Virus record (IMG/VR): IMGVR_UViG_3300036980_000594
Coordinates: 1-28,055 of that record
Strand: one strand, 5' to 3'
Source of the DNA: a virus
DNA: 28,055 bases
The translations under genes and the position numbers were made by a program. Below, one piece after another: positions 5,185 to 14,141 of the stretch (its first letter is position 1; every line of letters starts with the position of its first letter). Under the pieces are notes generated by a model. It was not told the DNA's origin. It worked only from the letters and a program-made list of their open reading frames with translations, and did no database searches.

Positions 5185-5488
5185 CCCCCTTGGTTTTTCT
5201 TGGTTTTGGCAATGGATCGTTTTTGGTGTCCTGAGAGTAAGCCAGCACGTCAGTAGACACCGCCTTAACTGGTTCCGCCTTCTTCAGCGGCTGCGGCTTA
5301 ATTGTTTCAACTGCTTTCGGTCGGTCAATGCGCGGTACTTCCCGGCCTATGCGTAGCGACGCGGTTTCCAATGCGCTCTTGCACCTAAGCCACATCCGGC
5401 GATTATGGTCAGTTGTGCCTAGTAACTCAATCACGTCGGAAAGGAGCGCTGTTATTTTGTCGGCAATTTGGTTTTCTTTTTCGGTCAT
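5162..5488 (-). CDS. Hypothetical protein between large terminase and chaperone-like gene
   Basis: I chose the ATG at 5488 because it overlaps the terminase stop as ATGA; a longer start at 5536 would overlap the terminase gene by 52 bp. The 108-residue protein begins MTEKENQIADKITALL, with a helical N-terminal part (about residues 1-45). A Pro/Lys-rich, probably disordered middle follows (P-Q-P-L-K-K-A-E-P-V-K), then an acidic tail with D-D-S-F-F-A-E. No domain was recognised. It sits where some phages encode small packaging or head-tail accessory proteins. Confidence 0.65.
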   Translation of the reverse strand: MTEKENQIADKITALLSDVIELLGTTDHNRRMWLRCKSALETASLRIGREVPRIDRPKAVETIKPQPLKKAEPVKAVSTDVLAYSQDTKNDPLPKPRKTKGDDSFFAE

Positions 5489-6726
5489 TTTGAATATGCT
5501 AAAACGGTTGAACCTTCGATTAATCGGGTAGCGCAATATCTGGCCGCGTCAAGGGCGTGGTCATGCGCCGCTACTGGTATGCTTGCTTTCTTATCGTTCC
5601 AAACGTAGTTTCTCAATTCGTGTTTTAGGTTGTAGCTTTCCGGAGTTACGACAAACTGAAACTTACTAAGCTCCCGTATCCCCTCCTTAATGCTATCCTT
5701 CCCCTTGCTTGCGTTCTGCATGTTCAACCCGTTACGGGCAAACATTTTAATTAGGCGCGGCTCGCTGGTATCGTTCACCACTAGCGCGTTTGGCTCTACC
5801 CGGTCAAGCATTATCGCCAGTGCTGCCTCATCGCTCAGGTTCGTCTTGTAAATTTCTTCGTGCATGTAAATTTGCATTGTCTTTGTATCTACCGCTACCT
5901 TTACCAGTGCCAACGGGTCAGGGAAGAAGCCCAGGTCAAGGCCATAACCGAATGGTAACGATTCATCAAACGATCCCTCTACCCAGTTGGGATAAATTAC
6001 GCCCTCTTTTCTGGTCAGCCATTGGCCTAAGTAGCGGTGCGCGTATGCTGCTGGGTTATCTCGTTTGAGGTTTTCTATCTTGGTTATATAGTCCTCATTC
6101 AAATGCCCTGCGTTATCAAACCACGTTGTATGGATGTGGGTAATGTCTGGGTGCGTGCTTATCGGTATTTGATGCCCATCAATTATTTCCATCCGGTGTG
6201 ACTTTTCAAACCATCGTTCCCAAATCCAGTGTTCAGTATCTTGTGGGTTCATTATCAAAACAACAATGTTAGGCAGGTCTTTTTGCCTTATGCTGTCGTC
6301 TATGATAATGAAATCCTTTTCACTTACAAATTCCTCAGCTTCATCGACTACAAAAACGTTCAGGCCGGGTATTGATTTAAGCCTAGCCGTTTCCGTTCCA
6401 CTTGCTGCCTTGATACCGGAGAAGATAATACTGCTCCCCGTGTCGCGGCATTCAACCAAACCGCTTGTTACCCGGCACCGATCAGCAACGCCAATCAAAT
6501 GCAGCTTTTCGGTAAACTCTGGTATGATTGAAATTTCGGCGCTCTTTAGCGTCCATCTAGTAAACAGCACCTTCCAATTCTTGAAGGTCGTTATGTTCTT
6601 ACATAGCCATTCGGAAACGGCGAACGACTTTTGAGAACCCCTACCCCCCGTCAGCAGGTAGTACCTCGTTCTCCTGTCTTTCAGGGGAAAGTACTTTCTT
6701 GAGATTTCCAAATTCATCATAAGCAA
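5485..6726 (-). CDS. terL: Terminase large subunit
   Basis: This 413-residue protein is the packaging motor, combining ATPase and nuclease. A Walker-A-like G-G-R-G-S-Q-K-S-F is at residues 27-35, Walker B with catalytic acid N-V-F-V-V-D-E-A-E-E at 123-132, and the coupling motif M-N-P at 159-161. The RuvC-like nuclease acids are D264 (G-L-D-L-G-F), D319 (N-D-T-S-E-P) and D389/D393 (H-D-H-A-L-D-A-A-R-Y). Length and motif spacing fit the Terminase_3/PBSX-like family. Its 5' end overlaps the small subunit by 86 bp; several Met codons (1, 3, 4) lie in the overlap, so the exact start is uncertain by a few residues. The next gene starts at its TGA. Confidence 0.95.
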   Translation of the reverse strand: MLMMNLEISRKYFPLKDRRTRYYLLTGGRGSQKSFAVSEWLCKNITTFKNWKVLFTRWTLKSAEISIIPEFTEKLHLIGVADRCRVTSGLVECRDTGSSIIFSGIKAASGTETARLKSIPGLNVFVVDEAEEFVSEKDFIIIDDSIRQKDLPNIVVLIMNPQDTEHWIWERWFEKSHRMEIIDGHQIPISTHPDITHIHTTWFDNAGHLNEDYITKIENLKRDNPAAYAHRYLGQWLTRKEGVIYPNWVEGSFDESLPFGYGLDLGFFPDPLALVKVAVDTKTMQIYMHEEIYKTNLSDEAALAIMLDRVEPNALVVNDTSEPRLIKMFARNGLNMQNASKGKDSIKEGIRELSKFQFVVTPESYNLKHELRNYVWNDKKASIPVAAHDHALDAARYCATRLIEGSTVLAYSK

Positions 6727-7042
6727 ATCCGTCTGTGTAGATTGTCTTTCCGGTTATCGTTTCGCCATTGCTCACTATGTCAATATGTTCCTTTGGCTTC
6801 CCATAAGCCCGGTTAAGCAGCATCTCAGCCGCTTTTAAGTCGCCCTTTATTGCCTTACTGCGGATTACCTTTAGAATCGCCTCTGCTGCGCTCATTCCAT
6901 TCTGCTCGTCTGCTAGGACTTCGGCAATCAGTAGGTCGAGGGCGGGTAGTTTCTTCGGGCGACCTTTGGGGTTTAATACCTCGCCTTTCTTTATCCGCTT
7001 TAGCGTTCCCCCATTCCTTCCCGGCATTGTGTCTTTTTCCAT
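6641..7042 (-). CDS. terS: Terminase small subunit-like protein
   Basis: This 133-residue basic protein lies directly upstream of, and overlaps, the large terminase. The N terminus has G-E-V-L-N-P-K-G-R-P-K-K near residues 20-31, a motif common in small DUF5681-type proteins upstream of phage terminases. A helical body follows (A-L-D-L-L-I-A-E-V-L, then K-V-I-R-S-K-A-I-K-G-D-L-K-A-A-E-M-L-L) that fits DNA binding and oligomer formation, and the C terminus is flexible. Function as the DNA-recognition part of the terminase is inferred from position and the N-P-K-G-R-P motif. Confidence 0.75.
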   Translation of the reverse strand: MEKDTMPGRNGGTLKRIKKGEVLNPKGRPKKLPALDLLIAEVLADEQNGMSAAEAILKVIRSKAIKGDLKAAEMLLNRAYGKPKEHIDIVSNGETITGKTIYTDGFAYDEFGNLKKVLSPERQENEVLPADGG

Positions 7043-7053
7043 TTACGTATTTT

Positions 7054-8535
7054 TTACGTGTTTACCGTTTCCAATAATCCGTCGTATTCGTCTAGCACGT
7101 CATCCAGTGAATGTGGAGCGTATGGGTCATAAGAAACAAAACGCTTTGTAGTTGTGTCCCATCGTTTAGAAAGGTTATCCAAAGTCTTACGCCGTATCTT
7201 TCGGATTACTTCGTTTGGTATGTAACTTTCCAAAAACCAAGTAGGTAATTTTTCTTCCACGCCGTATTCTCTTGTCAAGTCCCCAATATCGTAATGGTCT
7301 AAAATATACTTGTATTGCTCCCCCCTGCGTAAGGCTCGGAATTTCGAGTTGAACGTAAAGAGGTTGAAAATCTTTTCCGAGTTCTTAGCCCCGCCCCTTA
7401 AAACGCAAATATCAGAAAGCAACGAGGCTTCTGATTCTAAAGGGGAACGCTGGAAAAACTTAACCGTCCTCCCTTCGTTCCATGTTACCGAAAATTCCAT
7501 ATCATATAGAACCTTTATAGCTTTCTCCGAAAACTCGTTTTTGTAAAATAGATTTACAGCAGCATAAGCAGCAGGAGTAATAGGGGATGGCCTGAACGGG
7601 GTATTAGTCATCTTGATACGCATTTTCTTACCGTCAAAGTCAACCCGGTTTAAGCGCTCTACCATATCTAACCACAATTCCCAATCTTCCTGCGTTGCAC
7701 CCTCCAATCCAATGATGTTGTAAAGATTTACGTCTATACCTTTGTTTTTGGTTTTCTTGAGCACATCTATAAAGAATTGCTCTATCTGCTCGTTAGGCAA
7801 TCGCCTATTGTGTAAATACCTGCTTCGCTCTGATATTCCATCTAGCGCGGTTATAATGTCCGGCTTAGACCCATCATACAAGCAAGAATCCATCCATTCT
7901 AATTCCATGCTTTTGCCCGTGGAAAACTCCATGACAAAATCTTTCCGGCCTTCGTGCTTTCGGGCATAAGTGTAATGGCAATAAGTGCATTTGTTTGGGC
8001 ATCCATGCATTTCTTCTTTAAGCGAAAACTTTTTCCCGCCTATTTGCATATCCTCAATTACCAACATTTTTTCAGTCTGCCTAAAAATAATTGAGTGTAA
8101 TCCTTGTTCCTTGATGCGCATTAAGGAATCTGATGGGTAGTCGAACCAAGATTTTACTATCTTCCCAAATTCGCCCTCTGATCTTCCGAAATAAGCAAAG
8201 TCTAACCATTCTTGGACGTGGTAGGGGTTTTGCATTCCAAATCCGCCGCCACAAACCAAAAATTTACGATTTTCTTTTCTCCATTCTGGAATTTTATAGA
8301 CCGCCTTAGCAAAGGCAATCATATCATAATTAGAGGTGAAAGACACTAAAATTAAATCGTATTTGTACGCCGTCTCTGGCACACAATGCTCAACTTCTAC
8401 ACCGGTTTCCCCTTGCACATCCATAGCCACGATGATAGCCCCACCATTGCCAAGCCCCAAAAAGCTACTATTCTTGTGTCGCTTTGCACCTGCATTTTCC
8501 CCATCGAATATTAAAAAGGCTATCTTCTTGTCCAT
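7054..8535 (-). CDS. Radical SAM protein with B12-binding-like N-terminal domain
   Basis: This 493-residue protein contains C179-x3-C183-x2-C186 (H-G-C-P-N-K-C-T-Y-C-H), the 4Fe-4S site of radical SAM enzymes. The first 130 residues form a Rossmann-like region: alternating strands, D-L-I-L-V-S-F-T-S-N, F-L-V-C-G-G-G-F-G, and F-G-R-S-E-G-E-F near 116-123. This pattern is typical of the cobalamin-binding-like domain in many radical SAM proteins, but the D-x-H-x-x-G cobalamin ligand motif is not evident. N-I-I-G-L-E-G-A-T-Q-E-D near 263-275 fits a later core strand. The gene lies 11 bp from the small terminase start and 4 bp after the ParB-like gene. Its substrate cannot be read from the sequence; DNA, protein or glycan modification are all possible. 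Confidence 0.88.
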   Translation of the reverse strand: MDKKIAFLIFDGENAGAKRHKNSSFLGLGNGGAIIVAMDVQGETGVEVEHCVPETAYKYDLILVSFTSNYDMIAFAKAVYKIPEWRKENRKFLVCGGGFGMQNPYHVQEWLDFAYFGRSEGEFGKIVKSWFDYPSDSLMRIKEQGLHSIIFRQTEKMLVIEDMQIGGKKFSLKEEMHGCPNKCTYCHYTYARKHEGRKDFVMEFSTGKSMELEWMDSCLYDGSKPDIITALDGISERSRYLHNRRLPNEQIEQFFIDVLKKTKNKGIDVNLYNIIGLEGATQEDWELWLDMVERLNRVDFDGKKMRIKMTNTPFRPSPITPAAYAAVNLFYKNEFSEKAIKVLYDMEFSVTWNEGRTVKFFQRSPLESEASLLSDICVLRGGAKNSEKIFNLFTFNSKFRALRRGEQYKYILDHYDIGDLTREYGVEEKLPTWFLESYIPNEVIRKIRRKTLDNLSKRWDTTTKRFVSYDPYAPHSLDDVLDEYDGLLETVNT

Positions 8536-8539
8536 CAGT

Positions 8540-9001
8540 TTATTTTAAAAAGGAAAACCCGCACTTTGGGCAATCTATTTCCTCTTTCTTTTTACTTCCT
8601 TCCGCGCCGGGCATGTCGTCATCTATTCCGCCAAAATCCATTTCTTGCGGAATATGCAACCCCCACGCACTTAAATCGTCTGCATCCCAATTATTCGCCA
8701 ATTCATCCCAATCCCATTCTCCAAAGCCAACATTATCCGCAATTACAAACCGCTGCTTTTCTTCGGGGGTTAGTTCGTTGGCTCGCTTCACCCAATTATC
8801 TGGAATTTCCTTGTAGTTTAGTTCTTGCAATGCCTTTAGGCGCATGTTCCCGCCTAGTACAAACCCATTCTCGTCCACCACGATAGGCCGTAACTCCATC
8901 ATCTTTGGGAACTCCGAAATACTTTGCTTTAGCTTGGCAAATTTTTCATCCCTTAGTATCCGGGGGTTATCTGGATTGGCTTTAATTTCCTTTAGCTTCA
9001 T
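8540..9001 (-). CDS. ParB-like N-terminal domain protein with C-terminal zinc knuckle
   Basis: This 153-residue protein starts MKLKEIKANPDNPRIL, the usual opening of the ParB/Srx-like fold, and has G-G-N-M-R at residues 50-54, corresponding to the conserved G-[GH]-x-R signature. The following V-G-F-G-E-W-D-W-D-E-L (91-101) is typical of phage ParB-like proteins that sit beside DNA-modifying enzymes. The C terminus carries C144-x2-C147 (C-P-K-C-G-F). It is too short to be a chromosome-partition ParB. ParB-fold proteins can be CTP-dependent or nuclease-like; neither activity is shown here. It may act with the neighbouring radical SAM enzyme. Confidence 0.85.
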   Translation of the reverse strand: MKLKEIKANPDNPRILRDEKFAKLKQSISEFPKMMELRPIVVDENGFVLGGNMRLKALQELNYKEIPDNWVKRANELTPEEKQRFVIADNVGFGEWDWDELANNWDADDLSAWGLHIPQEMDFGGIDDDMPGAEGSKKKEEIDCPKCGFSFLK

Positions 9002-9179
9002 CTAGTGGTTTTAAATGGCTTGCACCAACTTTGAAAACTTGCACCTTGACTAACTTTCCATTTTGCGAGGTGAGTATTTTGTGGACTTTGCAAAGGTACA
9101 AGTATCCGCCCTCTGTGTTAGTATTGTAGACGCTTTTAACAGCATCCTTGTTACAGCCCTTTACACAACACTTATCCAT
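8982..9179 (-). CDS. Small zinc-binding protein
   Basis: This 65-residue protein has Cys at 4, 5 and 9 (MDKCCVKGCNKDA) and a later Y-L-C-K-V-H, which together could form one treble-clef-like zinc site. The rest is short and basic. It overlaps the ParB-like gene by 20 bp and lies 5 bp after the methyltransferase, so it belongs to the same operon. No family was assigned. Confidence 0.65.
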   Translation of the reverse strand: MDKCCVKGCNKDAVKSVYNTNTEGGYLYLCKVHKILTSQNGKLVKVQVFKVGASHLKPLDEAKGN

Positions 9180-9184
9180 ATCAT

Positions 9185-9817
9185 TTAATTAGGCACCTGA
9201 AACACCGTCAACCCGCACCGGGGCACCACGGTAGTCCACAAATCAATTCGCTGCCAGTTCGTGTTTCGTTTGATCCACTCAATCGTTTCCTTTTCATCCG
9301 GGCAATGCGCCCAGGCTTGTAGATCTTCGTCCCACTTCCCGCCGTAATTGTCCAGGACCCATTGCTTGTCCTTGTCGATGTCTGCTTGCTTCCAATGGCC
9401 TGTATCGTGCAAGATAAACAGTGCGCCGGAACCAAGGACATTTACTAGCCCTTTGACCACTTCGATGTTGTCCTTTAGCTTGTGACTTGCATCAACAAAC
9501 ACAAGATCGGGTATTCCACGCACAAAATCAATAGGCGCGGTCATATTTTGTTCAAAGCACAACATTCCGTTTGTACCTTGCCCGCGTTGTAGTTCCTTTA
9601 CTTCGTCGCTTATTGTCGAGTCCACGGCATAGATGAAGGGTACACCAGCATTGATCCAGACGCGCAAACTTTGGCCGATTAAGCAGCCGATTTCGAGGAC
9701 TACCTGGGGTTTGACCATATGGCATAGGCCGTACAAGAAAAGTGCCTCGTCGGACTGAATAGGCCCCAACGTCGTTTCGTTAAACGGGTGCAGGAAACTT
9801 GTATTGTACTGGCTCAT
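9185..9817 (-). CDS. Class I SAM-dependent methyltransferase
   Basis: I chose the ATG at 9817 (MSQYNTSFLH) because it overlaps the glycosyltransferase stop as ATGA; an ATG at 9826 is also possible. In the 210-residue protein, motif I is L-E-I-G-C-L-I-G-Q-S at 41-50, the acidic end of strand 2 is A-V-D-S at 64-67, and L-V-F-V-D-A-S-H at 105-112 plus H-D-T at 137-139 match the Methyltransf_24/TylF-like group. Those enzymes often methylate sugar hydroxyls in glycan pathways. Placement between a glycosyltransferase and SAM-related genes supports a glycan O-methylation role, but the substrate is inferred. Confidence 0.82.
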   Translation of the reverse strand: MSQYNTSFLHPFNETTLGPIQSDEALFLYGLCHMVKPQVVLEIGCLIGQSLRVWINAGVPFIYAVDSTISDEVKELQRGQGTNGMLCFEQNMTAPIDFVRGIPDLVFVDASHKLKDNIEVVKGLVNVLGSGALFILHDTGHWKQADIDKDKQWVLDNYGGKWDEDLQAWAHCPDEKETIEWIKRNTNWQRIDLWTTVVPRCGLTVFQVPN

Positions 9818-10743
9818 GGCTTCCATCGGTTTGGGTTTAAGTAATCCGGTTTGCTTTCAATTGTTGTATACTGGTCGTGGTTTGCTTTCATATCCTCAAC
9901 CCATACTTCCGCAACGCGTGGGGTAAGCACATTGTACTTTGGATCATCGTGGTTTTCGTGTAGTACCCAAGTATCTACCTCGTTTGGAGTTGCCGTTGTA
10001 AATCCAAAAGTGTACCGCTGCTTCATAAATGCCATGTCCACCGTCCCCCAGTTGCTACTTTCTGGCATCCCTTTAAACCGCTTCCAAGTATCAGTTGTTG
10101 CGCTGCAAAATATCCACGAATCAAAAGGCCGATTATCTGCCTCCAAGTTATTCGGATGAAAATCGTGGTTTGAATCGCCGTAATCGTAAAAATCTGGACA
10201 AATAGCCTTAAACCGCTGAATTGACCAATCCGCCGTACCTCCTTTGCTGCGGTCATCCATGAGCAAGAAAAACCAATCTTCATATCTTAATTGCAATTCA
10301 ACTGGCAGATAATACCCCCTAAACATCACAAAGTCGATCCCCTCCTGTGCAGCGTTGATTGCATCGAACGTGTAAATACCCGGTACAATTTCAGGGTGTG
10401 TAGGGATAACCCGTTCAGCCCCTAGCGCATGGATTGCAAAGCTTATGCCCATGTTCAGGAACGCCGCACTGTCACGCCACACCCCCGGCTGTTTGTCGGT
10501 GAGCTTGAAGTAAAAAACATCGATGTTATTGGAATATATTTTGCACACCTGCAAAGTGTCGTCTGTGCTACCGTCGTCAAGAACCACCACGCAATCCTCT
10601 GTGCCCATGCTTTCCTGGTAAGCGTACATTGATTGCCGCATCAAGTGGCCTCGGTTGTACGTCCCGAAAACTACGACGTTGCGGTAGGGTTTATGCCAAT
10701 GCTTTTTGCCATTGTTCCAAAGCGGATCTATAAAGTACAACAT
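9814..10743 (-). CDS. GT-A family 2-like glycosyltransferase
   Basis: This 309-residue protein has the GT2 nucleotide-binding start (V-V-V-F-G-T-Y-N-R-G, residues 23-32) and V-V-V-L-D-D-G-S-T-D-D at 52-62, a typical first acidic motif. Later acidic pairs and a D-D-R-S segment could serve as metal or acceptor site residues, but I cannot fix a D-x-D with confidence. No membrane segments are evident, so it is probably cytoplasmic. Its 5' end overlaps the mutase-like gene by 53 bp; no later Met would preserve the strand holding the Y-N-R motif, so the long overlap is probably real. Confidence 0.85.
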   Translation of the reverse strand: MLYFIDPLWNNGKKHWHKPYRNVVVFGTYNRGHLMRQSMYAYQESMGTEDCVVVLDDGSTDDTLQVCKIYSNNIDVFYFKLTDKQPGVWRDSAAFLNMGISFAIHALGAERVIPTHPEIVPGIYTFDAINAAQEGIDFVMFRGYYLPVELQLRYEDWFFLLMDDRSKGGTADWSIQRFKAICPDFYDYGDSNHDFHPNNLEADNRPFDSWIFCSATTDTWKRFKGMPESSNWGTVDMAFMKQRYTFGFTTATPNEVDTWVLHENHDDPKYNVLTPRVAEVWVEDMKANHDQYTTIESKPDYLNPNRWKP

Positions 10744-11590
10744 AGGGATGTTGATTATTTGGGTCGTGAAATTGGTTATCGAAGTCCTCGTTAAGCTCCA
10801 TAAAGATAGCTTCTTTTTTCAAGTTGGCAAACACATTGCTTGCCCGGCTGTGGTGTATAGTAGCGTACCCAGTCACGGCTGCGTAGCCTTGCGTGTCCAT
10901 CCAGCGTTTCAATACCACGCCGCTCCAAATATCAGCAAAGCGGTCGCCAACTGGTAGGTCAAACTCTGCAAGTCGTTTGCCCATCGGAGCTTGGTACACA
11001 TACGGCATTAGTTCACGTCGGAAAGCAAAATTCATGGCGCATAACGGAAACAGTGCGCCCGTTGGGATGCTGGTTTTGTTAAACGCAATGTCTTTCACGT
11101 CGGGGTTAAGGAACTGCGTAGGTGCGTCGAAATCAGGAACCCCGTTCCAAACCCCGTGCGACAACATTACAGGCCATTTTTCGCCACCCACAGGAATGCC
11201 CCGAACCCTCCAATCTTGCGCCGTTGACATCCATGTTGGGGAGACGGATATTGAAAGCGCGTTGATGTGACCCTGTATTGGGTCATTGACGGGGTAAACG
11301 TCGTCATCCAAAGAGATAATAATATCCGCGCCCCACTCATGCGCAAAAAGAAACCCAGCATTTCTACAACAATCCGACTTATTGAACAACCAGTTTTGGC
11401 TCTTGTTAGCTATAAAAGTTTGCCCTGTGTCATCAGGTAAGCTAAACTTTACGACAGGCCATTCCCCCGAATCATCAACTTTAAAAAGCCCTATTTGATG
11501 TTTTAAGAAAAGCGGTTTCCACGCCTCAAAAAACAATTTCCAGCTTTCCGGGCGTATGGTTGGTACAACGACTGCGATTTTTTGGCTCAT
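10691..11590 (-). CDS. UDP-arabinopyranose mutase / reversibly glycosylated polypeptide-like (GT75)
   Basis: This 299-residue protein matches, segment by segment, what I recall of plant RGP/UAM proteins. It opens A-V-V-V-P-T-I-R-P, has the metal-binding D-D-D at 95-97 (I-S-L-D-D-D-V-Y-P), R-G-I-P at 130-133, S-H-G-V-W-N-G-V-P-D-F-D-A-P-T-Q at 144-159, G-A-L-F-P-L-C-A-M-N-F-A-F at 178-190, D-I-W-S-G at 220-224, and H-S-R-A-S-N-x-F-x-N-L-K-K-E at 247-260. In plants these proteins interconvert UDP-arabinopyranose and UDP-arabinofuranose and self-glycosylate on an Arg, possibly R130 here. It overlaps the GT-B gene by the ATGA at 11587-11590. A cytoplasmic sugar-nucleotide mutase or related transferase is the best call; activity is untested. 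Confidence 0.82.
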   Translation of the reverse strand: MSQKIAVVVPTIRPESWKLFFEAWKPLFLKHQIGLFKVDDSGEWPVVKFSLPDDTGQTFIANKSQNWLFNKSDCCRNAGFLFAHEWGADIIISLDDDVYPVNDPIQGHINALSISVSPTWMSTAQDWRVRGIPVGGEKWPVMLSHGVWNGVPDFDAPTQFLNPDVKDIAFNKTSIPTGALFPLCAMNFAFRRELMPYVYQAPMGKRLAEFDLPVGDRFADIWSGVVLKRWMDTQGYAAVTGYATIHHSRASNVFANLKKEAIFMELNEDFDNQFHDPNNQHPYVVLYRSALEQWQKALA

Positions 11591-12636
11591 AACGACTCTA
11601 AAATTTCAACACGTTTTAAATTCAATTTCTCCAAATCTCTGTTTTCAGTTATCCACTGTCTGCCTTCCTCGATTGTTAGGTGATAGTCCGCATCGTCTTT
11701 CAATAGCCCCATGAACTCCTTGATCAATCCGCCTGCACTATCGTAATGACGCACCCCCGGATGATTGAACTCAGCAAACCCAGTCGGCGCATACGGCACA
11801 ATCCCCGCAACCAGCATTTCCATAGCAAAAATATTGCTTTTGGCATGGTTAAACGGATGGTCAACAAGCGGAAAAACACCGTAATCCGCTCCTGTATTGC
11901 GCAACTCCTCGAAGTAATGGAAGACAAACGGCCGCCAATCACGGGACAAAATGCCTGGGTAGTGGGTTTCAACATACGCTTTTAAGATCCCAATCCAACC
12001 AATGTTGGTGGTTTCATTCAATACCGCCCACTTCCAGAAAGAGTCAACTGTTTTTAGATCCTCCATGTGAGTCATTGATCCCCGCCAAAAGATTTTGATA
12101 AGCGCATCCGGGTTCATTTGCCCGTCTTTTTGCGATGGCGCATACCGGGACCTAACTGCTGGGTTAGTTTGTATTTGATTCGTAAAGGGCGTGGTTTTTA
12201 GGTCTATCCCGTTTGGAATGACTGTTATGCTCTTGTGCCATTGCCTGAACGCATCCTCCAGTACAGGCGTAGATACGATCACGTGGTCCGCATACTCGAA
12301 AGAATCCACAATGGTTTTTCTAACATCCTCCCGGTTGAAATGTGAGCTTGCCGGGTTAGTTAATGGCACATTGGTAAGTAAATCATCGTGGTCAAAAATG
12401 ATCTTGCCGTCACGGCGCATACGCTTGTAATCTCGGATAATCCCTAACATGGAATCACCATTAGGCCGGGAAAAAAACATCACATCACATTGGAAATAAT
12501 CTTCCCATTTGCTGTCGGGGCGAATGATTACAATCCTGTATTTAGGGTGTGCTTTTGAAAGCCGGGTAAACGCACCTACGGTTCGATAAAAATCTGTCGC
12601 AGGTGATTCGTTGTTTATTAGGATTCCTATTGTCAT
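11587..12636 (-). CDS. GT-B-like (family 4-like) glycosyltransferase
   Basis: This 349-residue protein starts with a Rossmann-type strand (MTIGILINNESPATDFYR). Later it has Y-A-D-H-V-I-V-S-T-P-V-L followed by I-T-V-I-P-N-G-I-D (about residues 113-146), the linker seen between the two domains of GT4-type enzymes. The C-terminal half carries A-K-S-N-I-F-A-M-E-M-L-V-A-G, corresponding to the donor-binding K-x8-E-x-x-A/G pattern. It probably uses a nucleotide sugar in the cytoplasm. Start and stop overlap neighbours by 4 bp on both sides, so expression is tightly coupled to the mutase-like gene. Confidence 0.82.
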   Translation of the reverse strand: MTIGILINNESPATDFYRTVGAFTRLSKAHPKYRIVIIRPDSKWEDYFQCDVMFFSRPNGDSMLGIIRDYKRMRRDGKIIFDHDDLLTNVPLTNPASSHFNREDVRKTIVDSFEYADHVIVSTPVLEDAFRQWHKSITVIPNGIDLKTTPFTNQIQTNPAVRSRYAPSQKDGQMNPDALIKIFWRGSMTHMEDLKTVDSFWKWAVLNETTNIGWIGILKAYVETHYPGILSRDWRPFVFHYFEELRNTGADYGVFPLVDHPFNHAKSNIFAMEMLVAGIVPYAPTGFAEFNHPGVRHYDSAGGLIKEFMGLLKDDADYHLTIEEGRQWITENRDLEKLNLKRVEILESL

Positions 12637-12995
12637 TTGGTTGTTTTTTTAAGTGTTGCTAAATCCTCCATTTGTGATAATAGCATGTCTATATATCGCA
12701 TGTTTGGATTTTCTTTTTCAAGCTCAATAAAGGCAATGCAATGTAAAATACGCATATGGTTTTCAGGTATCAATCTGACACCGTTTTCAATTTGCCCGTT
12801 GCTGTTTTCTGCTTCCACGCTACAAGATAGCCTTTCCAGCTCTCCCCACCCCTCCAGCAGCACCTCAAGCGCCTGGTTAGCGGTCGTATTTGTTCCTCGC
12901 TTGGCTTGCAAGAATCCTACCACCTCCATCAGCCGGGCATGTGTGGCCTCGGTTAGTGAGATGCTTTTCTTCCGTATTAATTCAGTATTGCTCAT
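12633..12995 (-). CDS. Hypothetical protein, possible ribbon-helix-helix; first gene of the leftward operon
   Basis: In this 120-residue protein the N terminus (R-K-K-S-I-S-L-T-E-A-T-H-A-R-L-M-E-V-V-G-F-L) reads like a strand followed by helices, as in ribbon-helix-helix DNA-binding proteins. The middle is acidic and the C terminus is helical. It is the first gene after the divergent control region 12996-13286, so it could regulate one or both directions. It overlaps the next gene by ATGA. The RHH assignment is tentative. Confidence 0.7.
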   Translation of the reverse strand: MSNTELIRKKSISLTEATHARLMEVVGFLQAKRGTNTTANQALEVLLEGWGELERLSCSVEAENSNGQIENGVRLIPENHMRILHCIAFIELEKENPNMRYIDMLLSQMEDLATLKKTTK

Positions 12996-13079
12996 TTTCG
13001 CTTTTGGTTTAAAAAAACCGGGCGCACAACCTAGCCTAAATCAGTAGTATGAATGCGAAACGTAAAAAACTCTGCAATT

Positions 13080-13087
13080 CAAAGATA
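13080..13087 (-). promoter_or_regulatory. Candidate -7 element for the leftward operon
   Basis: On the minus strand TATCTTTG matches TAnnTTTG about 85 bp ahead of the 12995 start. No TTG is found at 19-20 bp upstream, so the site is incomplete. It forms the leftward half of the divergent control region. Confidence 0.4.
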
Positions 13088-13126
13088 CGACTATTTTTAT
13101 ATTTTTTATAGTTTTAGGCAAAAAAG

Positions 13127-13157
13127 TTTGCAGGTTTGAAAAATAGGTGTATATTTG
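13127..13157 (+). promoter_or_regulatory. Bacteroidetes-type promoter for the early operon
   Basis: TTTG at 13127-13130 is separated by 19 bp from TATATTTG at 13150-13157 (followed by C), an excellent -33/-7 match. A/T-rich DNA at 13090-13115 could serve as an upstream element. Predicted transcription start is near 13164. Confidence 0.75.
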
Positions 13158-13163
13158 CAGTAC

Positions 13164-13286
13164 GATATAACGCTTAGAGGTGAGAGCCTAACCGTCATAT
13201 TATGAGGATTTAGTAGTTAAACAAAGCCCGGCGCTCTCACAATAGCCGGGCTTTTGTATTTTTAGTCAACTACTAACATCAACGAT
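13164..13286 (+). ncRNA. Structured leader RNA ahead of the initiator gene
   Basis: Between the promoter and the ATG at 13287 lie three sets of complementary segments. GTGAGAGC (13180-13187) matches GCTCTCAC (13233-13240). AGCCCGGC (13225-13232) matches GCCGGGCT (13245-13252). TTAGTAGTT (13210-13218) matches AACTACTAA (13268-13276). The first two interlock in the order a-b-a'-b', as in an H-type pseudoknot with no nucleotide between b and a'. The outer helix ends 10 nt before the start codon. An attenuator or cis-regulatory RNA is likely. I do not recognise it as a named family. Confidence 0.6.
13225..13256 (+). terminator. Terminator-like hairpin inside the leader (attenuator candidate)
   Basis: An 8-bp GC-rich stem (13225-13232 with 13245-13252) is followed by CTTTTGTATTTTT. 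It lies downstream of the promoter but upstream of the first gene, so it would limit read-through into the replication genes. Its 12-nt loop contains the 8-nt segment that can pair upstream. Confidence 0.6.
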
Positions 13287-14141
13287 ATGTCAAAAATTAC
13301 ACGCCAAAAGCGTACCGAAAACTACACCGTCGTAAACAACGACATTCTACAAAATACCGACCTTTCCTGGGCTGCCAAAGGCATGCTGGTTTACTTGCTC
13401 CATTTACCGGACGACTGGCAAATTAATGTTGCCGATCTTTCCAATCGTTCCCGAAATGGCCGTGATGGTACGGCGGGCATCATTAAGGAATTAATGGCCG
13501 AAGGCTATATTTTACGGGTGAAGATCAAGAACGAAAAAAGCCAATTTAAAGGCTATGATTATACCGTAACCGATGAACCCGTAAACGGGAAAGCCGTAAA
13601 CGGAGATTCCGTAAACGGGAAAGCCGTAACAAGTAAGTACTATCTTAAACAAGTACTAAATAAAGAAAATACTATTGAAGAACCTCAAAAGGAAAAATCA
13701 ATTCCATCAAAGGAACAAAAGGAGAAGAAACCTAAAGGACAACCTAAACATATCTTCCCTCCAACCTTGGAAGAGGTGATACCGTTGATGTACGCTAAGC
13801 TCGTTGAAAAAAAACGAATCCACACGAATATCGTCGACTGCTGGAACAACGCCAACATGCAGGCTGAAAAATTCCATATCCATTGGGAGGAAAAAGGATG
13901 GAAGATTGAAAAGTTGAATCTGGCAATTGCCAAGTGGATCAACAACTCAATCAGTTACGGACAAGTTACCAAGCCCTGCCCCATCCAATACCCCAACAAC
14001 CCCGCGAACGCACAGCCCGCACAACCTACTAAAGTACACGTCGAAGAACGCCCCGTATTAACTCAACAGGACATTGAAACCAGCTCTGCGCACTTGGCAG
14101 CGGTTGGGGATGTGTTCAAACAGATGGGGGTAAGAGTATGA
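13287..14141 (+). CDS. Winged-helix replication initiator-like protein
   Basis: In this 284-residue protein, residues 15-75 (V-V-N-N-D-I-L-Q-N-T-D-L-S-W-A-A-K-G-M-L, then L-S-N-R-S-R-N-G-R-D-G-T) look like the winged-helix N-terminal domain of phage and plasmid initiators. The middle (about 95-160) is low-complexity, Lys/Glu/Pro-rich, and includes three V-N-G-[KD] repeats coded by the iteron array. The C-terminal half is helical (W-N-N-A-N-M-Q-A-E-K-F) and could bind the helicase, as lambda O does. It is followed by a helicase gene one gene later. It overlaps the next gene by ATGA. Confidence 0.7.
   Translation: MSKITRQKRTENYTVVNNDILQNTDLSWAAKGMLVYLLHLPDDWQINVADLSNRSRNGRDGTAGIIKELMAEGYILRVKIKNEKSQFKGYDYTVTDEPVNGKAVNGDSVNGKAVTSKYYLKQVLNKENTIEEPQKEKSIPSKEQKEKKPKGQPKHIFPPTLEEVIPLMYAKLVEKKRIHTNIVDCWNNANMQAEKFHIHWEEKGWKIEKLNLAIAKWINNSISYGQVTKPCPIQYPNNPANAQPAQPTKVHVEERPVLTQQDIETSSAHLAAVGDVFKQMGVRV
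13564..13638 (+). repeat. Five 15-bp tandem iteron-like repeats, candidate replication origin
   Basis: Units begin at 13564, 13579, 13594, 13609 and 13624, each starting CCGTAA. Units 1 and 3 of the central three are identical (CCGTAAACGGGAAAG) and unit 2 is CCGTAAACGGAGATT; the outer units are degenerate. Each central unit holds the near-palindrome CCGTAAACGG. Location within the initiator gene mirrors lambda ori inside O. Confidence 0.6.

Follow-up and report, generated by a model that had tools for sequence, protein, structure and literature searches.

A predicted DNA-modifying radical SAM protein in the interval between ParB and terminase, and an adjoining glycan module, in a viral operon

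The window analyzed here, a virus contig of 28,055 bases that comes from an uncultured phage and is possibly a fragment (IMG/VR record IMGVR_UViG_3300036980_000594), carries on its minus strand ten codirectional genes (12995 to 5485), which encode a 120-aa leader, a GT-B glycosyltransferase, an RGP-like protein, a GT2 glycosyltransferase, a class I methyltransferase, a 65-aa cysteine-rich protein, a ParB-like protein, a radical S-adenosylmethionine (SAM) protein, and the small (TerS) and large (TerL) terminase subunits. We regard it as reasonably probable that this operon combines two separate exchangeable modules, a virion-glycan kit extending from the GT-B to the methyltransferase gene (module A, 9185-12636) and a DNA-modifying kit made up of ParB and the radical SAM protein (module B), the latter probably directed against restriction. 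Two modules rather than one are proposed because the sugar genes and the ParB-radical SAM pair each occur without the other, the former in loci L149 and L150 and the latter in L260 (L followed by a number denotes a locus used for comparison). Module A would make a methylated sugar or transfer one, with a virion protein as the most likely acceptor. Module B would chemically alter the phage DNA, either ahead of packaging or while it proceeds, and would most likely let it escape host restriction. The radical SAM protein is predicted to modify phage DNA because of the logic of the interval between ParB and terminase in related phages, here called the ParB slot, in which ParB is constant and the DNA-modifying catalyst is interchangeable.

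Slot contents were surveyed in loci gathered through TerL relatives (80 kept of 409), GT-B relatives (79 viral loci, from the best 80 of 356 confirmed), and ParB relatives (80 kept of 588). With duplicates removed by identical 300-bp ParB stretches, the census covered 89 distinct loci that have both genes in the stretch, with ParB upstream of TerL; one of the loci, L023, has an atypical ParB-TerL distance. Classes were assigned by hidden Markov models (HMMs) built from slot genes, followed by a Pfam check. DNA-modifying or predicted DNA-modifying genes occupied 81 of the 89 slots. ParB fused to an N6/N4 DNA methylase accounted for 41 (3 also with DUF4417 and 1 with DUF5131), TET-associated glycosyltransferases (TAGT) for 9 (L186 was grouped here by eye, having no Pfam match, and L173 holds only a 57-aa TAGT fragment), an ABC-ATPase with GNAT for 8, Mom for 6, the 7-deazaguanine set (DpdA-like, QueC, QueD, QueE, and FolE) for 5, a C5 methylase with or without a second methyltransferase for 5, PAPS reductase with a second ParB for 4, and TET/JBP oxygenase with an FkbM methyltransferase for 3. 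Outside these 81, radical SAM filled a single slot, that of the window itself. For loci in which ParB is unfused, Pfam searches of 97 slot proteins supported the classes, returning Mom (6), TAGT (9), QueC (6), GTP_cyclohydroI (5), PTPS (5), C5 DNA_methylase (5), Tet_JBP (3), PAPS_reduct (4), and GNAT (7). Pfam detected no DNA-modification family among 49 control genes after TerL, which instead matched portal, Mu F, GP88, NUMOD4, and HNH families. Because the frequent methylase fusion is replaced in other loci by Mom, TAGT, deazaguanine, TET, and other genes, we argue that ParB would be the constant, DNA-handling part of the slot and the second gene an exchangeable catalyst.

The same arrangement is found in cultured phages. 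Psychrobacter phage Y8A has ParB, a Mom homologue, TerS, and TerL; this homologue (L268 1626-2279; OQ059336.1 7125-7778) is annotated as hypothetical, matches the census Mom profile at E 3e-64, and is distinct from the gene named Mom by the Y8A authors. Leptospira phage LE4 has ParB, an ABC-GNAT fusion (L265 4474-5574), three more small genes, and TerL, and Bacteroides phage BS-TP3 has ParB, a ParB-methyltransferase protein, TerS, and TerL. The ParB protein of the window is 55-66% identical to ParB proteins adjoining Mom, methyltransferase, and GNAT genes and 54.8% identical to the ParB preceding the radical SAM gene in L260; its profile gave no PDB match. A C-terminal CxxC tail, considered as a mark of ParB proteins paired with radical SAM, was discarded, being present in 5 of 143 ParB-like open reading frames, including Mom- and C5 methyltransferase-paired ones.

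The radical SAM protein is assigned to its superfamily by the CxxxCxxC motif and by a PF04055 match that lies just under the cut-off and rises above it once its pieces are joined. Its only Pfam matches at E ≤ 1 were Radical_SAM, Radical_SAM_N2, and PRO8NT, with no match to the known phage DNA-modification families Mom, TAGT, DpdA, Tet_JBP, and DNA methylases. Ordinary protein searches found no close relative in viral contigs, genome contigs, phages, plasmids, or the PDB; at E ≤ 10, the phage search returned only MiaB genes of bacterial-looking contigs and unrelated weak matches. A degenerate DNA pattern for GCxxxCxYCHY picked out 17 stretches, of which one was a true relative, L255; it shares 35% identity with the window protein over 459 aa (E 5e-85), and L255 and L260 denote one contig. 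Alignment-based scans built on L255 added L261 and L262, and the final scan added no more, giving a four-member family in which C179, C183, and C186 are the only cysteines invariant in all members. Another candidate, L204, was dropped, its weak profile match being the start of a terminase gene.

Among these relatives, L260 repeats the window order of ParB, radical SAM, TerS, and TerL, with a divergent TerL, and no GT-B, RGP, or GT2 gene was detected there; the same three genes are absent from the stretch examined in each of the three relatives, and none of the three whole records contains RGP. Two methylase genes, one of the N6/N4 type (E 4e-45) and one Dam (E 4.5e-21), begin at most 2.3 kb after the radical SAM gene of L261, a gene also flanked by weak methyltransferase matches. 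The radical SAM genes of L261 and L262 do not adjoin a terminase within the stretch examined. A TnpB-like transposase-type gene, recognized by eye, lies upstream of the relative in L261 (5054-6226).

In MiaB and RimO methylthiotransferases, a second cluster is held by three additional N-terminal cysteines; a reading of the window protein as such an enzyme was rejected, there being no invariant cysteine outside CxxxCxxC. The protein would hold one 4Fe-4S cluster, and methyl transfer to a carbon atom is tentatively suggested because of a weak resemblance to class B (cobalamin-binding) radical SAM methyltransferases: TIGR04013, TIGR03960, and TIGR04014 matched at E 1e-7 to 2e-5, all far below curated cut-offs, across the N-terminal half and the CxxxCxxC stretch, and PDB entry 9ccb matched at E 0.005. 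The protein C-methyltransferase model TIGR04014 reached E 1.7e-7 in L262, and the DxHxxG motif is absent from the window protein. We tentatively put forward, as a possibility with the balance still against it, that this stand-alone radical SAM protein is guided or clamped by ParB and alters a DNA base directly on genome-length DNA beside the packaging motor, for example, by cobalamin-dependent methylation of an unactivated carbon. It would then represent a new class of hypermodification and one of many interchangeable slot chemistries.

Module A is anchored by the GT-B protein, whose profile gave no PDB match and for which no relatives turned up in the cultured genomes searched. L149 and L150 repeat the order GT-B, RGP, GT2, and methyltransferase, followed by TerS and TerL, with neither ParB nor radical SAM; their RGP and GT2 proteins are 45-46% and 36% identical, respectively, to those of the window. 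The RGP-like protein combines the RGP profile with the aspartate triad (LDDDV in its sequence) of UDP-arabinopyranose mutase and GT75 proteins; in its alignment to 8cid, SLREG of 8cid stands opposite VG-GEK of the window, and we take the LREG stretch to hold the reversibly glycosylated arginine of GT75. The gene at the place of the window methyltransferase in L149 and L150 matches Methyltransf_24 at E 1.7e-19, and the window protein is probably a sugar O-methyltransferase.

As to the target of this module, the divergent phage L161 carries a GT-B relative (phrog_7162 E 4e-19) immediately before a head protein gene; major head protein and head-tail adaptor genes lie upstream of it, and those for the tail terminator and major tail protein follow the head protein gene. 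In Streptomyces phage Zuko, the order is a sugar dehydrogenase-type gene, a GT-B relative, a helix-turn-helix gene, terminase, and portal. The window resembles Zuko and the virion glycosylation loci of the mycobacteriophage type in having glycosyltransferase genes within the packaging or structural block; it differs from them in that its GT-B gene is followed by those for an RGP-like protein, GT2, and a methyltransferase. Hydroxymethyl-base phages need a thymidylate-synthase-family gene, and the window record differs from T4/RB69-type hydroxymethylcytosine glycosylation in that no such hydroxymethylase (PF00303) was found in it or in the 14 other GT-B records searched, most of these near 40 kb; any of the records may be incomplete. 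Because of the GT-B gene inside the head and tail genes of L161 and the absence of the hydroxymethylase from all 15 records, we favor virion glycosylation over base glycosylation for module A. In L086, L088, and L094, conserved genes (clusters c32, c31, c26, and c38; labels by eye), among them those for a DegT-like sugar aminotransferase and a methyltransferase, lie upstream of GT-B, and this lineage has a different sugar kit at the same place.

Comparison with the closest relative, L004, bears on how such a region changes. In blastn, the window aligned to L004 at 11603-12648 (81.5%, across GT-B) and at 5424-6429 (79.7%, most of TerL), with nothing between, and TerL protein identity rises from about 0.5 in the N-terminal part to 0.93-1.0 over the last two fifths. 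The corresponding interval of L004 is occupied by a methyltransferase unlike that of the window, one further gene, a GT2-type gene, and a TerS that also differs. Because the flanks are similar, no match lies between them, and TerL identity climbs along the protein, the stretch between the GT-B 3' end and the inside of TerL is, judged by these alignments, one that has been exchanged as a block.

Several points weigh against a DNA-modifying role for module B. The radical SAM protein has no close relative of established function, its link to DNA comes only through neighboring genes, and in L262 the gene next to it has no Pfam match. AlphaFold models of it were poor (mean predicted local distance difference test score of 35.7 for the protein alone and 40.2 with four sequences), and because both predictions were poor, the radical SAM fold and the B12 domain rest on the weak profile matches. 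Nothing was recognized in 7 of the 89 slots, and the ABC-GNAT and PAPS reductase-ParB classes are predicted rather than proven DNA modifiers. The slot loci are related by descent and were found by scans that favor such loci, so the counts describe a pattern and not independent events. In 58 of the 89 loci, GT-B precedes ParB by at most four genes, an association that a single joint pathway would likewise give. In such a pathway, the radical SAM protein would render a carbon of a DNA base reactive, the GT-B, RGP-like, and GT2 proteins would add a pentose, and the methyltransferase would cap it, producing a methylated glycosyl base as in arabinosyl-hydroxymethylcytosine phages; the shared operon, the DNA-type glycosyltransferases (TAGT) in the slot of relatives, and the arabinosylated cytosine of RB69-type phages (PMC13390438) fit this scheme. 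It is nevertheless quite improbable in our judgment, since the sugar cassette and the ParB-radical SAM pair occur apart, GT-B accompanies many unrelated slot chemistries, and none of the 15 GT-B records searched yielded a thymidylate-synthase-type hydroxymethylase. The first-pass annotation had likewise treated the cluster as one system; its view that modification genes are joined to packaging genes, with DNA and virion as likely targets, holds up, whereas the unity does not survive the separate occurrence of the two gene sets or the varying DNA-modifying genes that fill the slot in related phages, and ParB, listed among the parts, was missed as the constant partner.

Radical SAM enzymes also occur in sugar and peptide modification, and the one here could act on a sugar or virion protein within the glycan module, adjoining ParB by chance; besides the shared operon, the presence of TIGR04014 among the class B matches is in keeping with this. 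We think it improbable, in view of the relatives' stretches devoid of GT-B, RGP, and GT2, the whole records devoid of RGP, and the position of two of the four family members directly between ParB and TerS and of one among DNA methylases. The main rival to virion glycosylation holds that module A alters the host surface, by superinfection exclusion or an O-antigen-like conversion. Surface conversion by phage glycosyltransferases is well established, and PHROG places the GT-B family under moron/host takeover; we still rate this as unlikely, because module A adjoins the terminase, the homologues in L161 and Zuko lie, respectively, between head-tail adaptor and head/tail terminator genes and beside the terminase, and no obvious membrane segment was seen by eye in the sequences of the four module A proteins. 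Finally, the region might be a loose cargo hotspot in which terminase-proximal genes are often replaced with no common functional theme, as the block exchange against L004 and the description of terminase regions as variable islands (PMC7468147) would allow; this we find very improbable, given that DNA-modification-type genes fill nearly all of the slots and none of the control positions after TerL.

With two modules as the preferred reading, module B can be set beside known systems. The full 7-deazaguanine set occupies the same slot in L089, L090, L096, L105, and L152, and its QueE-like gene, like that of the window, encodes a radical SAM protein; QueE makes a free base precursor, whereas the window protein stands alone with ParB and shows no QueE match. 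Homologues of Mom of the phage Mu type (PF25680, best E 8e-52) lie at the exact position of the radical SAM gene in L007, L010, L087, L110, L180, L190, and Y8A, Mom being a GNAT-fold-like enzyme and the window protein instead a radical SAM protein. Mom is cited as belonging to an acyltransferase superfamily (PMC7761591). ParB-methylase fusions resemble module B in tying a ParB/Srx domain to a DNA modification enzyme at the same place before TerS, and Bce_0392 of Bacillus cereus, a ParB fused to an adenine methylase, nicks DNA (PMC5512222); in the window, by contrast, ParB is a separate protein and its partner is radical SAM. Phosphorothioate systems come with DndB, a protein once assigned to the ParB superfamily (PMC10853773). 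The TAGT of T-even phages probably acts on cytosine that is already glucosylated, attaching a second sugar (PMC13390438). In cryoconite phages, the variable islands hold alternative methyltransferase or acetyltransferase genes and TerL varies as well, and a Mu-like phage among them has a variable region between integrase and TerL with a ParB label on its map (PMC7468147); in the available part of that paper, neither a radical SAM protein nor a rule for the ParB slot is described. Our literature search, with most subscription journals outside its coverage, found neither a ParB-radical SAM pair nor any account in which the interval between ParB and terminase serves generally as a DNA-modification slot. 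Iyer et al. (2013) reportedly surveyed DNA base modification systems. Phage DNA-modification loci are already known as a kind; a radical SAM catalyst of this sort in one of them would be a new variety.

Other slot contents were noted in passing. An FkbM-type methyltransferase and a TET/JBP-type oxygenase form a pair in the ParB slot of L098, L131, and L136, a possible further unexplored modification. An ABC-ATPase with a GNAT domain, split or fused, adjoins ParB in L005, L106, L141, L143, and LE4 and is a predicted modification system, for which we know of no modification product. A DUF4406 gene is often found in the relatives, either separating TerS from TerL or as the sole occupant of a slot (7 of the 97 slot proteins; for example, L111 12850-13191). 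L177 has, between its ParB-methylase fusion and TerL, a DUF5131 protein with a cysteine-rich motif (9049-9999); DUF5131 is possibly radical-SAM-like, which would make this protein a second such candidate in the slot.

The features of the locus are listed in Table 1. Overlaps of 4 bp join the leader to GT-B and GT-B to RGP, one of 13 bp joins GT2 to the methyltransferase, and RGP and GT2 overlap by 53 bp at the listed ATG, GT2 also having later ATGs. The methyltransferase and cysteine-rich genes are 5 bp apart, the latter overlaps ParB by 20 bp, gaps of 4 and 11 bp (the largest) follow ParB and radical SAM, and TerS and TerL overlap. Because terminator-like sites within 5400-13400 are only at chance level (9 found, 9.2 expected), the ten genes are likely cotranscribed. 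The terminase and downstream genes share the strand of the operon, whereas a DnaB-type helicase lies on the opposite strand, a layout consistent with the late action proposed in the first-pass annotation; the operon is probably expressed late. That annotation had described nine closely spaced genes in 7054-12995 leading into the large terminase: the genes named do lie on the minus strand with this spacing and number nine, but the interval holds eight, TerS being the ninth. HMMs back its labels for GT-B, RGP/UDP-arabinopyranose mutase, GT2, radical SAM, ParB, TerS, and TerL and, weakly, for the methyltransferase; its ribbon-helix-helix (RHH) label for the leader (no Pfam or PHROG match at E ≤ 1) and its zinc label for the cysteine-rich protein (no Pfam match; PHROG only at E 0.06 and 0.29) drew no model support. 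Location of the cluster away from terminase, which it had named as counterevidence, is seen for single parts elsewhere, namely GT-B among the head and tail genes of L161 and, within the stretch examined, radical SAM in L261 and L262. The divergent operons are separated by an intergenic stretch (13008-13159) that shares 82% identity with L004. On the plus strand it contains a promoter-like match of Bacteroidota type, TTTG-N-TANNTTTG, at 13127-13157, and a second TANNTTTG box was seen by eye near 13083-13090 on the opposite strand; the count of this pattern in the window is not above chance. No Rfam family was found in the window.

Table 1. Genes of the minus-strand operon, in order of transcription, and the stretch that differs from L004
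Feature	Position	Strand	Evidence or remark
120-aa leader open reading frame, possibly RHH-like, first operon gene	12633..12995	-	N-terminus homologous to sequence upstream of L004 GT-B, 74% over 42 aa
GT-B fold glycosyltransferase, glycan-module anchor	11587..12636	-	phrog_7162 E 1.9e-21; 88% identical in L004
RGP/UDP-arabinopyranose-mutase-like (GT75-like) protein	10691..11590	-	PF03214 E 1.3e-27; PDB 8cid E 1.2e-13
GT-A family 2 glycosyltransferase (GT2)	9814..10743	-	PF00535 E 7.9e-6
Class I SAM methyltransferase	9185..9826	-	Methyltransf_24 E 0.0039 (weak)
65-aa cysteine-rich protein	8982..9179	-	Sequence only
ParB/Srx-domain protein, 153 aa, unfused	8540..9001	-	phrog_498 E 3.6e-25; ParB_N E 6e-4
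Radical SAM protein, predicted DNA-modifying enzyme	7054..8535	-	PF04055 E 6.4e-6; C179-x3-C183-x2-C186
Small terminase subunit TerS, DUF5681 family	6641..7042	-	PF18932 E 2.8e-11; weak phrog_2538 (terminase small subunit)
Large terminase subunit TerL	5485..6726	-	PF04466 E 5.5e-29; PF17288 E 4.9e-13; N-terminal part inside replaced stretch
Exchanged cassette, no DNA similarity to closest relative L004	6429..11603		Flanks about 80% identical

Phage DNA modifications are many, but new ones have so far been found singly. The position between ParB and TerS predicts DNA modification, with eight recognized classes in related phages and examples in cultured Psychrobacter, Leptospira, and Bacteroides phages, and it may therefore serve as a finder for new modifications, the radical SAM protein being the first unexplained case. 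It also prompts a testable question, namely, why modification should be coupled to ParB and to packaging. If our reading is true, direct modification of phage DNA by a radical SAM protein would be a new restriction-evading chemistry.

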